Below, in pieces: positions 41,303 to 55,150 of a stretch of DNA of 64,000 bases. The position numbers and the translations under genes are program-made. The notes under the pieces were generated by a model, which was given only the letters and a program-made list of their open reading frames with translations, did not search any database and was not told the origin of the DNA. This stretch comes from Exiguobacterium marinum DSM 16307 (GTDB lineage: Bacteria > Bacillota > Bacilli > Exiguobacteriales > Exiguobacteriaceae). The stretch covers positions 1,131,662-1,195,661 of the forward strand of contig NZ_KK211189.1 of NCBI RefSeq assembly GCF_000620845.1. The letters run 5' to 3'. The number at the start of each line of letters is the position of its first letter. The stretch's first letter is position 1.

Positions 41303-42547
41303 ATGATTATTAACCACAACCTTAACTCAATGAACGCACACCGTAACATGTCATTCAATACAGCACAAACAGGCAAAGCGATGGAGAAATTGTCTTCAGG
41401 TCTTCGTATCAACCGTGCTGGAGATGACGCAGCTGGTCTTGCAATCTCTGAGAAAATGCGCGGGCAAATTCGCGGTTTAGATCAGGCAACGCGTAACTCA
41501 CAAGATGGAATTTCACTTATTCAAACAGGTGAAGGTGCATTGAACGAAACACATTCAATTCTTCAACGCATGCGTGAACTCTCAGTTCAATCAGCGAACG
41601 ATACAAACACAACTCAAGACCGTTCTAACATCCAAGATGAAATGAAACAACTTGGAACTGAAGTTGATCGTATTGCTAACCAAACTGAATTCAACACTAA
41701 AAAACTTTTAAATGGAGCAATGGGATCTGCACAGGCAACTGCAACAGGTACAATTGTGAATAATAGTGGTCTTGACGCTGCAGCGGCTGACGGTACAGTC
41801 TTAAACGTACTTACAGACAAAGCTGGAAATAACCTTGGGTTACAAACTGGTGACGTAATTACGGCCTCATGGTCTGTTAACGGAACTCAACAAACAGCTA
41901 CCTTTACAATTGCAGATGCAGCTGTTGATACAATGGCAGCGATCAATACTGCTATTGCAGGAAATGCAACTGTGACAACTGCAGCTACGGCATCAGGTGC
42001 AACTACAATTACGGCTGCAACTGGTGGATCTGTTGGGCAAATCAATGGCTTTGCAATCGAGGTTAAATCTGCAACTGGCGAACGTAAAGAAGCAGCTTCA
42101 AATGCCCTTTCAAACTTTGAAGTAGGCACTGAAGCGAAAGATGTTCGTAACGATGGATCAGCTACATTCCATATCGGTGCAAACAATGGTCAAACAATCA
42201 ACCTTTCAATTTCTGATATGCGTGCATCTACACTTGGTGTTAAAGATTTACAAGTTGGTACACAGTCACAAGCTGAAACAGCAGTTAAAGTAATTGATCA
42301 AGCTATACAAAAAGTTTCGGTTGAACGTTCAAAACTTGGTTCGGTACAGAACCGTCTTGAGCACACAATTAACAACTTGAGTACTTCTGCTGAAAACCTT
42401 CAAGCTGCTGAATCACGTGTACGTGATGTAGACATGGCAAAAGAGATGATGAACTTTACGAAGAACAACATCCTTAACCAAGCTGCACAGGCTATGATGG
42501 CGCAATCGAATCAGCAACCGCAAGCGGTTCTTCAATTGCTTCGTTAA
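41303..42547 (+). CDS. hag: Flagellin Hag
   Basis: A 414-residue flagellin. The conserved N-terminal D0/D1 part (MIINHNLNSMNAHRNMSFN, GLRINRAGDDAAGLAISEKM) and C-terminal part (VRDVDMAKEMMNFTKNNILN, QQPQAVLQLLR) are complete. The middle (about 145-290) is Ala/Thr-rich, the surface D2/D3 domain, longer than in B. subtilis. Codons are A/T-rich compared with neighbours. ATG 41303 follows GGAGGGA; a longer GTG reading is rejected. It is driven by SigD and followed by a homing endonuclease gene on the other strand. Confidence 0.95.
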   Translation: MIINHNLNSMNAHRNMSFNTAQTGKAMEKLSSGLRINRAGDDAAGLAISEKMRGQIRGLDQATRNSQDGISLIQTGEGALNETHSILQRMRELSVQSANDTNTTQDRSNIQDEMKQLGTEVDRIANQTEFNTKKLLNGAMGSAQATATGTIVNNSGLDAAAADGTVLNVLTDKAGNNLGLQTGDVITASWSVNGTQQTATFTIADAAVDTMAAINTAIAGNATVTTAATASGATTITAATGGSVGQINGFAIEVKSATGERKEAASNALSNFEVGTEAKDVRNDGSATFHIGANNGQTINLSISDMRASTLGVKDLQVGTQSQAETAVKVIDQAIQKVSVERSKLGSVQNRLEHTINNLSTSAENLQAAESRVRDVDMAKEMMNFTKNNILNQAAQAMMAQSNQQPQAVLQLLR

Positions 42548-42568: not shown

Positions 42569-42606
42569 TAACACCCGCATCCTGGAAGGGAACGCGGGTG
42601 TTTTTT
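42569..42606 (+). terminator. Terminator of hag
   Basis: A perfect 9-bp stem (42569-42577 with 42593-42601) followed by T residues. Confidence 0.85.
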
Positions 42607-43477
42607 AACTTACATACACAACTTGTTCTTCTTTTAATCGGTTCTTCTTAATATCTTGCCACTTGTATACGACAGACCAATAGCTACGTCCTAGTATATC
42701 TGCAATTTCTTGATCTGAAATTCCTTTTAATTTTGAAGTCACAATCAGTTCGATTTCTTCCTCCGAATAATCGTTTTTAGGTTTTGATGTGATGACAATC
42801 ATATCTGGATTCGCTTCTTTCTCCAACTGCAAGCGATGTTCCCAATCTAGCTTCCATGCCATAGAAGGTATTTTCTCACTGTATGAAGCAGTAAAGTCTA
42901 AGAATTTTAGAGCAACTTCCGTCTTTTGAATACGGAGAATGAAATTGTGACCATCATTTCTTCGACTTAGCACAAAACGATGTCCAAATGTTTTTTCGAT
43001 GAATTGACTTAAGTAATTTAATTCAGAAGGATGAAATGCTTGCAAGTAGAGTGCGATATGAGGAGTTAAAATCATTTGTTGCTTTTTTGAACGGGTTGAG
43101 CGCGTGACACACAGACTGCCATCATCTAAATAGAGTGCTAGTAAAAAAACTGGATCCGTACATTCTTCAAGTAAATGAAGGGGGATGCTTTTCTTACCTC
43201 CGATATAAAGTTCTGCTCGAAGCCAAGTGAAAAGTTCATCAAAACGTGAGGTGAGAGAAGCGCTTGTTCCGTTATTGTTTTTGATGATACTCGAAAAAAT
43301 TCGTGGAGCGCTGTTTAATTTCCATTCACGATATTCGAGTTGCTTGATTGAAAAATGTTCTCCATATCTTAAATTCGCATTTGGATATTTCTTTTTAGAA
43401 ATTCCGATGTGTCCATCTCCCAATAAAGTCCCCATTAATAAACTCTTCTCAAAAGTCGTCAATTCTTCCCATTTCAT
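42605..43477 (-). CDS. Free-standing LAGLIDADG homing endonuclease
   Basis: A 290-residue protein with two LAGLIDADG motifs: LLMGTLLGDGHI (residues 13-24, catalytic Asp21) and FLLALYLDDGSL (111-122, Asp118 or Asp119). The signatures of the LAGLIDADG_2 type follow: KSIPLHLL before motif 2, and IPSMAWKLDW near residue 205. The C-terminal 50 residues (SEEEIELIVTSKLKGISDQEIADILGRS) form a helix-turn-helix-like DNA-binding extension. It is AT-richer than its neighbours, has its own weak promoter (TTGAAA with an AT-rich -10) and AGAGAGG site, and lies tail to tail with hag. It is not inside an intron or intein. Confidence 0.85.
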   Translation of the reverse strand: MKWEELTTFEKSLLMGTLLGDGHIGISKKKYPNANLRYGEHFSIKQLEYREWKLNSAPRIFSSIIKNNNGTSASLTSRFDELFTWLRAELYIGGKKSIPLHLLEECTDPVFLLALYLDDGSLCVTRSTRSKKQQMILTPHIALYLQAFHPSELNYLSQFIEKTFGHRFVLSRRNDGHNFILRIQKTEVALKFLDFTASYSEKIPSMAWKLDWEHRLQLEKEANPDMIVITSKPKNDYSEEEIELIVTSKLKGISDQEIADILGRSYWSVVYKWQDIKKNRLKEEQVVYVS

Positions 43478-43654: not shown

Positions 43655-44011
43655 ATGAACCCGACCATTTCAGAAGTCCGGCTTCACCTACCTTCTTCCG
43701 TCTTGCCGTATGAACAAACGAAAAACGTGTTCGTCGAAGCGAATCAAGCGAAACTCGCCGACGAAGGCATCGTCATTCTTCCGACGCCTCAACACGTTAC
43801 CAAGCTAGAGGCGGCCGTCGAGAAGGCGAATCAAATACTGGAACAACAGCGTACAGGCTTAAAATTTATGAAGCATGAAAAATTGAACGACTACTATATT
43901 CAAATCGTGGATACGAACAACGAAGTGATCCGCGAAATCCCAAGCAAAAAATCCCTCGATTTCTTTGCAGCGTTCATGGAGTTCAATCATCTCTTTGACG
44001 AACGGGTATAA
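43655..44011 (+). CDS. flaG: FlaG family protein
   Basis: A 118-residue protein. The C-terminal half has the FlaG pattern: LKFMKHEKLNDYYIQIVDTNNEVIREIPSKKSLDF. The N-terminal half is a less conserved helical region. FlaG affects filament length in relatives. It is the first gene behind a SigD promoter and is followed by fliD 12 bp later. Confidence 0.9.
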   Translation: MNPTISEVRLHLPSSVLPYEQTKNVFVEANQAKLADEGIVILPTPQHVTKLEAAVEKANQILEQQRTGLKFMKHEKLNDYYIQIVDTNNEVIREIPSKKSLDFFAAFMEFNHLFDERV

Positions 44012-50785: not shown

Positions 50786-51688
50786 TTAGTTCAATAATTG
50801 TAACACGCCTTGCGGCAATGCGTTCGACTGGGCAATCATTGCCATGCCGGACTGGTTCAAGATGTTTAGACGGGCGAAGTCCATCATTTCACGGGCCATA
50901 TCGGCATCACGGATTCGTGACTCAGACGCCGTCAAGTTCTCTGAACCGATGGCGACGACGCTGACGTTTGCCTCGAGCCGGTTTTGGATGGCCCCAAGTT
51001 TCGAACGTTCGAGCGAGACCTTGTTGATGGCCGCATCAAATTTCGCGATTGCTTCTCCCGCTTTGTCTGGCGTCAACACGCTCAGCGCGTAGTATGTTTC
51101 AGACGCTGTCGCCTGATCATTGTCGTGATCGACGGCAGGAAGTTCTCCGCCACCTGCTGACGTCGTCGTAATGTCGAGCGCATGCGCCCGCATGTCTTCG
51201 ACGTTCAAGATGACGGCCTCGTTATTACCGGCACCGATTTGGAAGAATAACGTGCTCTTGCCTTCTTTGTATTCCCCGTTCATGATTTTCTTCGAGTTGA
51301 ATTCGGTTGTTTCCGCGATTCGCGTCACTTCGGCAGTCAACGCGTTGATTTCTTCCTGGACAGCTTTGGCGTCGTCCTCACTGAGCGTCCCGTTCGCCGC
51401 TTGGACGGACAGTTCTCGCATCCGTTGGAGAAGGGCGTGTGTCTCGTTCATCCCACCTTCAAGCGTCTGTGTGAGCGAGATGCTGTCGAGCGTGTTGCGT
51501 TCTGCCATCGAAAGCGAGTCGAGGCGCATTCGCATCTTCTCGGAGATGGCGAGACCTGCCGCATCGTCAGACGCCTTGTTGATCCGAACCCCACTCGAGA
51601 GACGATCCATCGTCTTTTTCATCGAGGCTTGGTTCAGGGAAAGGGAAGTATAGGCTTTTAATGCTTGAACGTTATTGGTAATTTTCAT
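50786..51688 (-). CDS. Second flagellin (short form)
   Basis: A 300-residue flagellin paralogue. D0/D1 regions are intact: MKITNNVQALKAYTSLSLNQ, GVRINKASDDAAGLAISEKM at the N-terminus, and RIRDADMAREMMDFARLNIL and LPQGVLQLLN at the C-terminus. The central insert is only about 60 residues (Asp/Ala/Thr-rich near AVDHDNDQA), so the filament surface would be small. GGAGGAAA precedes ATG 51688, which lies inside the end of the second fliS gene (17-bp overlap). No SigD promoter was found next to it; it seems to be read from the upstream fliK-like gene. Confidence 0.92.
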   Translation of the reverse strand: MKITNNVQALKAYTSLSLNQASMKKTMDRLSSGVRINKASDDAAGLAISEKMRMRLDSLSMAERNTLDSISLTQTLEGGMNETHALLQRMRELSVQAANGTLSEDDAKAVQEEINALTAEVTRIAETTEFNSKKIMNGEYKEGKSTLFFQIGAGNNEAVILNVEDMRAHALDITTTSAGGGELPAVDHDNDQATASETYYALSVLTPDKAGEAIAKFDAAINKVSLERSKLGAIQNRLEANVSVVAIGSENLTASESRIRDADMAREMMDFARLNILNQSGMAMIAQSNALPQGVLQLLN

Positions 51689-52052
51689 AGCGGTTTCCTC
51701 CAGTCGGGGCAAGTTGGGTTTTAGCACGCTCCATCGCTTCGCTCCACGTTTGATCGAGATCGCTTGCGAGCGTATGTAGTTCGGCGATTTTTTGCTTGTC
51801 CTGATCGATGATCGCTTCGACACTGGCGTTCGCCATGTAGAGATAAATTTCATCGAGTTGTGCCGCGATAATCCCACCGCCATCATGGAGTCCTTGATGG
51901 AGCTTGACTAACAGCTCACGGGCTTGACGAAGGTGGCGATTCCGTTCCGCAATCGTCGAGTCTTGGGCACGTTTGTAATGATAAACGAGCGCGTGTAACA
52001 TCGCCTGCGTCAGTTCTTCAGGCCTCATTTCATATAGCTGGGTTGAATTCAT
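51672..52052 (-). CDS. Second FliS-like flagellin chaperone
   Basis: A 126-residue FliS paralogue: YEMRPEELTQAMLHALVYHYKRA at the N-terminus, RQARELLVKLHQGLHDGGG, and LDEIYLYMANASVEAIIDQD. It differs strongly from the main FliS and is directly coupled to the second flagellin, which is the probable client. Its start overlaps the end of the FlhB-like gene by 4 bp (ATGA). Confidence 0.85.
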   Translation of the reverse strand: MNSTQLYEMRPEELTQAMLHALVYHYKRAQDSTIAERNRHLRQARELLVKLHQGLHDGGGIIAAQLDEIYLYMANASVEAIIDQDKQKIAELHTLASDLDQTWSEAMERAKTQLAPTGGNRYENYQ

Positions 52053-54638: not shown

Positions 54639-54824
54639 ACGCTGCACCATCCTCCTCGTATTAGATTTTCAGGATCGGCTAAAGACAAACGGCACAAACC
54701 TAAATCATCCCTTCAATGATATATCACAAAAAATGTAAATTCAATAAGGCAATATGAAAAGTAGGGAAATATAATTCCAATGAAAGCCAAATGACGAAAC
54801 GTTTACAATAATTTGAGAAATTGT

Positions 54825-54853
54825 TTGTCACGCTTCCAAGAAGGTGGTAAGAT
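54825..54853 (+). promoter_or_regulatory. SigA promoter of csp
   Basis: TTGTCA (54825-54830), 17-bp spacer, TAAGAT (54848-54853) preceded by TGG, an extended -10. Transcription starts near 54860, and a small hairpin AGAGG-ACAAA-CCTCT (54861-54875) is at the 5' end. Confidence 0.7.
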
Positions 54854-54909
54854 TAGCCGTAGAGGACAAACCTCTGTATTCTCCAATGGTGAAAGGAATG
54901 GATTTACAC

Positions 54910-55107
54910 ATGGTAGGTAAAGTAAAATGGTTTAACTCAGAAAAAGGTTTTGGATTCATCGAAGTTGAAGGCGGCAAAGACGTGTTCGTACACTTCTCAG
55001 CAATCCAATCTGAAGGTTACAAATCACTTGACGAAGGTCAAGAAGTAGAGTTTGAAATCGTTGATGGCGAGCGCGGCCCACAAGCGGCTAACGTTACAAA
55101 ATTATAA
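54910..55107 (+). CDS. Cold-shock protein (CspA/CspB family)
   Basis: A 65-residue CSD protein with both RNA-binding motifs: [16 protein letters not shown] (RNP1) and [10 protein letters not shown] (RNP2), and the end [10 protein letters not shown]. It is an RNA chaperone in the cytoplasm. The start at ATG 54910 is the family's usual one; the ATG at 54898 is too close to AAAGGA. Codon use is A/T-rich, typical of high expression. It is divergent from comK. Confidence 0.95.
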
Positions 55108-55119
55108 TTTCAAACCACG

Positions 55120-55150
55120 AAGCCGGTTCCCTTGGGAACCGGCTTTTTAT
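55120..55150 (+). terminator. Terminator of csp
   Basis: A perfect 12-bp stem (55120-55131 with 55134-55145) with a two-base gap and T run. Confidence 0.82.

Follow-up and report, generated by a model that had tools for sequence, protein, structure and literature searches.

The gene lying between hag and flaG in Exiguobacterium marinum DSM 16307 is likely a free-standing LAGLIDADG endonuclease from a family that resides beside hag, putatively aimed at the 3′ end of hag, in a lineage whose own hag intron was probably lost. We studied it within the window, by which we mean the whole 64,000-nucleotide stretch of DNA that was analysed (Table 1). The endonuclease most likely recognizes the conserved 3′ end of hag at the position where relatives carry an intron (between MLA and QANQQ); a hag allele without the element would be cut and then repaired from a donor, and the repair would copy the endonuclease gene, part of the adjacent hag sequence, and, from donors that have it, the intron. 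Endonuclease and intron would be linked partners in collaborative homing throughout most of the family, and in the window's branch the intron was probably lost while the endonuclease persists alone.

Table 1. Features of the window at and around the endonuclease gene, numbered from the first letter of the window.
Feature	Position	Strand	Basis or remark
LAGLIDADG_2 homing endonuclease gene (HEG type A), 290 aa plus stop	42605..43477	-	ORF, Pfam, alignment, AlphaFold2 model
First LAGLIDADG motif, LLMGTLLGDG, residues 13-22	43412..43441	-	Alignment
Second LAGLIDADG motif, FLLALYLDDG, residues 111-120	43118..43147	-	Alignment; DDG aligned with the DDG of I-SceI
C-terminal HTH-like helices, residues 239-279 (predicted)	42641..42763	-	AlphaFold2 model, PHROG
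hag, flagellin, 414 aa, no intron	41303..42547	+	ATG at 41303, stop ends at 42547
flaG, flanking gene	43655..44011	+	
hag terminator-like hairpin (AACACCCGC...GCGGGTGTT, then Ts)	42570..42602	+	Read by eye
Place in hag matching the intron insertion site of relatives (site 2)	42500..42519	+	Junction 42502/42503, between GCG and CAATCG; two mismatches to GCT followed directly by CAAGCNAAYCARCARCC

The endonuclease ORF starts with ATG, is intact, and runs convergently with hag, and its stop codon (42605–42607) falls inside the T run that follows the hag hairpin. A sequence-only reading of this DNA had described a LAGLIDADG gene with two motifs on the opposite strand after hag, and the ORF, the Pfam match, and the structural model bear this out. 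The gene is present as a single copy, and a search for further copies in the same genome found none. To our knowledge, B. subtilis has no gene of this kind between hag and flaG. The nearest named relatives come from Exiguobacterium, plus one from Peribacillus simplex. The gene is free-standing: it is open and lies outside any intron or intein, and alleles without it exist. The group I intron family RF00028 had no match anywhere in the window, and none at its hag with E values up to 1. An intein was rejected because the gene is intergenic on the other strand and the hag ORF is uninterrupted. The window's hag has one tail only, with no duplicated tail across an element, and the absence of the intron means that the window lacks the collaborative-homing arrangement of an intron with an adjoining endonuclease gene. 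Elsewhere in the window, a second ORF (50786–51886, minus strand) has an end that matches the flagellin C terminus at 59% identity, and a cspA thermoregulator RNA was detected at 54816–55149 on the plus strand (89.5 bits).

The assignment of the protein rests on several comparisons. Pfam LAGLIDADG_2 (PF03161) matched residues 12 to 188, spanning both motifs, with an E value of 1e-18 and 68.3 bits against a cut-off of 25, and PHROG returned a LAGLIDADG homing endonuclease at 9e-9. Residues D21, D118, and D119 are invariant across 13 aligned relatives, and the acidic residues closing each motif are those we take to be catalytic. The AlphaFold2 model (pLDDT 88.8, pTM 0.78) predicts a monomeric fold that contains both motifs, each closed by an acidic residue. 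Its best structural matches in the PDB were I-WcaI and I-SceI (E 3e-9), with 18 to 20% identity in the five best matches, and sequence comparison with solved structures gave chance-level matches only (best E 0.39). Unlike I-SceI and I-WcaI, the window protein carries an additional HTH-like region at its C terminus, made up of three predicted helices (residues 239–250, 255–262, and 266–279) with weak PHROG HTH matches (best 0.0011), in agreement with the HTH-like extension that had been proposed from the sequence. Within the endonuclease clade, pN was 0.12 to 0.28 versus a pS of 0.67 to 0.88 (near saturation) in ten pairs, indicating purifying selection.

Comparing hag–flaG intervals, an approach also suggested by the sequence-only reading, revealed alleles both with and without the gene. 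All 38 genomes of our order sample, 19 from each of two genera (g1 and g2), were examined at this interval. Intron and endonuclease gene occur together in 13 genomes (ten open genes, a frameshifted one in G004, and remnants in G001 and G033), seven have the intron with no trace of the endonuclease gene, six have the endonuclease without an intron, and 12 have neither. Among the six, the gene is open in the window, G002, G006, and G010 and broken in the other two: in G018 it has two stops and is split between contigs, and in G015 a 50-residue remnant is left. As a side observation, about 8 kb of glycosylation-type genes separate hag from flaG in G009 (L035 1153–8973), where the three proteins scanned gave Pfam matches to MptE-like, polysaccharide synthesis, and NeuB families; the hag–flaG distance is similar in four more endonuclease-free genomes.

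Linkage to hag extends well beyond the order. In a class sample of 398 genomes (match threshold E up to 1e-8), 35 genomes had a match and the gene adjoins hag in 34 of them; in the exception, G216, it lies among genes judged by eye to be phage-like. In a phylum sample, also of 398 genomes, ten matched besides the window's own, and eight of these ten further genomes have hag within the same stretch of about 9 kb. The two exceptions are G441, with no hag on its 8.4-kb contig, and G455, where the gene lies among phage-like genes. In G493 and G695, hag is 2.4 to 2.8 kb from the endonuclease gene and no intron is visible. The gene is therefore not scattered over many unrelated loci, and the link to flagellin that had been proposed holds up. 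We considered a phage or plasmid source for the endonuclease and rejected it because 50,697 phage records yielded only two weak matches (27% identity), 72,556 plasmid records yielded none, and no match was confirmed in the viral contigs searched.

The introns of the family are group I introns at the 3′ end of hag, detected by RF00028 at 75 to 88 bits in 20 of the 38 genomes of the order. The intron at what we call site 2 sits in the last hag codons, between MLA and QANQQ; site 1 lies between RDVD and MAKEMM, and some hag genes carry introns at both. Splice junctions were set by hand, with the 5′ junction directly after GCT and the 3′ junction between G and CAAGC; P1 is GCUC/GGGC, with a U.G pair at the splice site. 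With these junctions the reading frame continues across the joined exons for all 20 introns of the order, as it does for all 18 Bacillota introns from outside the order that fit the motif; the other seven of these 25 loci did not fit it and were dropped (G138, G151, G038, G506, G603, G673, and G728). A second full, stop-terminated flagellin tail stands at the 5′ end of 36 of the 38 parsed introns, with short tails instead in G059 and G070 (QLLVA and QFEQVA, each followed by a stop), and the flagellin tail is duplicated in all 20 intron alleles of the order.

Given this stop-terminated copy at the intron's 5′ end, hag mRNA would encode the full flagellin whether or not it is spliced, and both forms may be translated. 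In the 14 g2 introns, ten codons of the in-intron tail vary and all of the changes are synonymous, including those in the stop codon (pS 0.344, pN 0); in the six g1 introns, four codons vary in protein sequence (pS 0.47, pN 0.10). Judging by this variation, and by the pN of 0 in g2, selection appears to keep the unspliced hag mRNA coding for flagellin. G027 and G031 are near-identical and form a clean empty/filled pair for the intron, and introns also occur with no neighboring endonuclease gene (e.g., G207, G128, G200, G345, G251, G366, G267, G274, G084, and G358). Separately, a hairpin of eight pairs (at least seven paired) spans the exon-2 stop codon in all 20 intron alleles of the order (L028–L062), as well as in the empty G027; the two genera differ in it by compensatory changes, and it was not seen at the window's hag.

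The endonucleases fall into two types that pair with the two intron sites. Type B comprises weak relatives in G224, G298, G327, and G337, which group with 100/100 support, G224 and G327 on long branches. G224, G337, and G327 have an intron at site 1 only, and G298 has both; G327 lies at a contig end, where the motif and the tail were used to call its site, and two stops interrupt its gene close to the 3′ end. Type A genes accompany site 2 only in 15 genomes and both sites in seven (frameshifted in G070), five are open without any intron (the window, G002, G006, G010, and G361), and no type A gene with site 1 only was seen among the loci examined. Among genomes with a single intron, all 15 with type A (one of the genes frameshifted) have the intron at site 2, and all three with type B (one of the genes with two stops) have it at site 1, giving a p value of 0.0012 when relatedness is ignored. 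Remnants of type B lie beside an intronless hag in G320 and on another contig in G138. In g73 (L103, L104–L107), five proteins of about 650 aa are fusions of B and A, and the B half lacks the motif acids in all five. Also, G090 has a LAGLIDADG ORF inside its hag intron in sense orientation (L098 4004–4732), with a type A remnant downstream on the other strand; the ORF looks like an endonuclease that entered the intron.

With hag-linked endonucleases, introns, and a type B that pairs with an intron site of its own, the family looks like a chromosomal form of collaborative homing, in which a free-standing endonuclease is combined with an intron at its presumed target. The suggestion that the window's nuclease was a relative of a flagellin intron or intein was right in part: it appears to be the stand-alone relative of an intron-linked system, the intron being a group I intron in the hag tail, and no intein was seen.

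We looked at the presumed target through the sequence that is formed when the exons are joined. This joined site, GCTCAAGCNAAYCARCARCC, is found in seven of the 12 genomes with neither element and in none of the 26 with either (p 6e-5), and a reversed-pattern control gave 0 everywhere. In 20 of the 26 genomes the intron itself splits the joined site, and the independent part of the comparison consists of the six endonuclease-only genomes (0/6 versus 7/12, p 0.038), a weak contrast among related genomes in which two of the six genes are broken or remnants. A changed codon before the site, which might make endonuclease-only alleles resistant, shows the same distribution (GCT in 0/6 endonuclease-only genomes versus 7/12), but gene-free relatives share changes there, GCT also being missing in the endonuclease-free G005, G008, and G017. 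The nearest match to the joined site in the window is hag itself, with two mismatches, and this site 2 position would be the target of the endonuclease.

The sequence around the intron is also graded in its divergence. Among g2 intron alleles, the synonymous difference in hag drops as the site is approached, from 0.605 to 0.096, with values of 0.030 for exon 2 and 0.625 for flaG; no drop was seen in four empty genomes or in the endonuclease-only genomes, and it is weak in g1. In these alleles of g2, the sister genus of the window's g1, pS is 0.03 to 0.10 in the flanking exons versus 0.34 in the in-intron tail. We rejected co-conversion as the full explanation of the conserved exon flanks, since the tail within the intron has diverged more than they have.

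The window's clade (G000, G010, G002, G006, and G018; 100/100) lies among intron-linked type A clades in the endonuclease tree, which was rooted on type B and in which several forks among type A clades are open. Given this nesting, loss of the intron in the window's branch is the simpler reading. A trace of the lost intron was sought in the window's hag tail and not found: one diagnostic position near the 5′ end is of the in-intron type, and the rest are mostly exon-2-like or mixed, so a deletion between two tails is unsupported by these positions. The endonuclease tree joins G000 and G010 (100/97), a grouping rejected on secA (p-AU 4e-52), and the SecA tree requires at least ten changes of endonuclease state and at least 12 of intron state, remnants being counted as present. 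Endonuclease pS exceeds secA pS in 19 of 22 pairs, which argues that exchange of the endonuclease would be old or from unsampled lineages and not very recent between most of these genomes.

We weighed three other accounts of the gene. The protein could be a maturase that helps the hag intron to splice, and not an enzyme that cuts DNA. LAGLIDADG maturases exist (PMC3984707), the gene adjoins an intron in 13 of the order's 38 genomes if a frameshifted gene and two remnants are included, and the missing motif acids in the type B half of all five fusion proteins suggest that some of the family's domains may serve a different function. We nonetheless find this account improbable: four genes of the window's branch and the G361 gene are open although no intron is there, and in seven genomes of the order the intron is found but no trace of the gene. 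Little credence is likewise due to domestication, in which the protein, once a homing endonuclease, would have become a DNA-binding regulator of hag or flaG that acts through its HTH. Such a regulator would fit the HTH-like C terminus, the purifying selection, and the fixed place beside hag, and WhiA is a known regulator derived from a LAGLIDADG protein (PMC3984707), but the distribution is patchy (19 of the 38 related genomes have the gene or a remnant, and the SecA tree requires the changes of state given above), the motif acids are kept, and several genomes have broken copies.

The pairing of types A and B with the two intron sites and the repeated presence beside hag across Bacillota similarly make it unlikely that the gene is an ordinary selfish free-standing endonuclease whose target is intergenic or elsewhere and whose address at hag is historical, even though the gene lies outside hag, the target in hag is a presumed one, and members of the broader family occur in phages. 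An endonuclease aimed at the 3′ end of hag is the reading we prefer, and we compared it with known systems.

In the collaborative homing described for phages (T3/T7-like phages, cyanophage F-CphI, ICP1 terminase), a free-standing endonuclease gene lies beside an intron without one of its own, and in two of these systems the endonuclease targets the site of intron insertion (PMC3984707, PMC10448857). The hag family resembles them in having a free-standing gene beside an intron that lacks its own, and differs in that its systems are chromosomal, its proteins are LAGLIDADG_2, it has two pairs of site and type, its target is presumed, and the window has no intron. Temperature-dependent group I introns have been reported in flagellin genes of Geobacillus and thermophilic Bacillus (Hayakawa and Ishizuka 2009, 2012, via PMC3984707 and PMC4853749). 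These too are group I introns in a Bacillota flagellin gene, but the accounts of them in the citing papers mention no endonuclease and the window's hag is without an intron. In Geobacillus, edn1 and edn2 are LAGLIDADG genes of the flaA2–flaG region considered a possible cause of glycosylation-gene loss (PMC5109656); their likeness to the window's gene is one of position between flagellin and flaG, and the word intron is absent from the main text of that paper. Both elements, introns in flagellin genes and a LAGLIDADG gene located between flagellin and flaG, have thus been published for Geobacillus, and in the open-access literature searched we found no paper joining a flagellin intron with a neighboring endonuclease. 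The double tail has a counterpart in fungal mitochondrial mobile ORFs, endonuclease elements that bring a second copy of the 3′ end of the host gene (PMC3630166). The carboxy-terminal duplication is as in hag intron alleles, but in hag the extra tail is inside a group I intron, the endonuclease gene is outside it on the other strand, and the window has one tail.

More broadly, and with confidence that is about evenly divided, we propose that Bacillota flagellin genes host a three-part homing system made up of a linked endonuclease, an intron at its target, and a recoded, stop-terminated tail in the first loop of the intron, which would leave the host protein whole whether the intron is spliced or not. 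The pairs A/site 2 and B/site 1 would share the gene tail, with their endonucleases fused in one genus, and the window would be a case of an endonuclease that outlived its intron. If true, a well-known bacterial surface gene has long hosted a two-part homing system that, in the literature we read, is known from phages, and the flagellin introns and the endonuclease gene near flaG in Geobacillus are explained together. The 38 genomes, in five states, would offer natural replicates of gain, loss, and decay, and a chance to test whether an intron does no harm even when it stays unspliced, as its own copy of the host gene's tail comes along.

Two further observations concern the hag genes themselves. 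The first bears on the earlier suggestion that the nuclease may drive gene conversion of hag and so aid surface-domain exchange: in g1, the window's genus, an intact endonuclease goes with a long hag in eight of eight genomes versus one of 11 without, by a length threshold chosen after seeing the data; no such trend was found in the sister genus. Beside an intact endonuclease, the g1 hag encodes 363 to 517 aa (six measured), with open frames of 459 and 480 in two, and without one it encodes at most 296 aa in ten of 11, G004 being the exception. In G025 (L044, L191), secA groups with g2, but the resemblance of hag and flaG is to g1 (flaG 87% to the window), a pattern suggesting that the hag–flaG region was exchanged between the genera.
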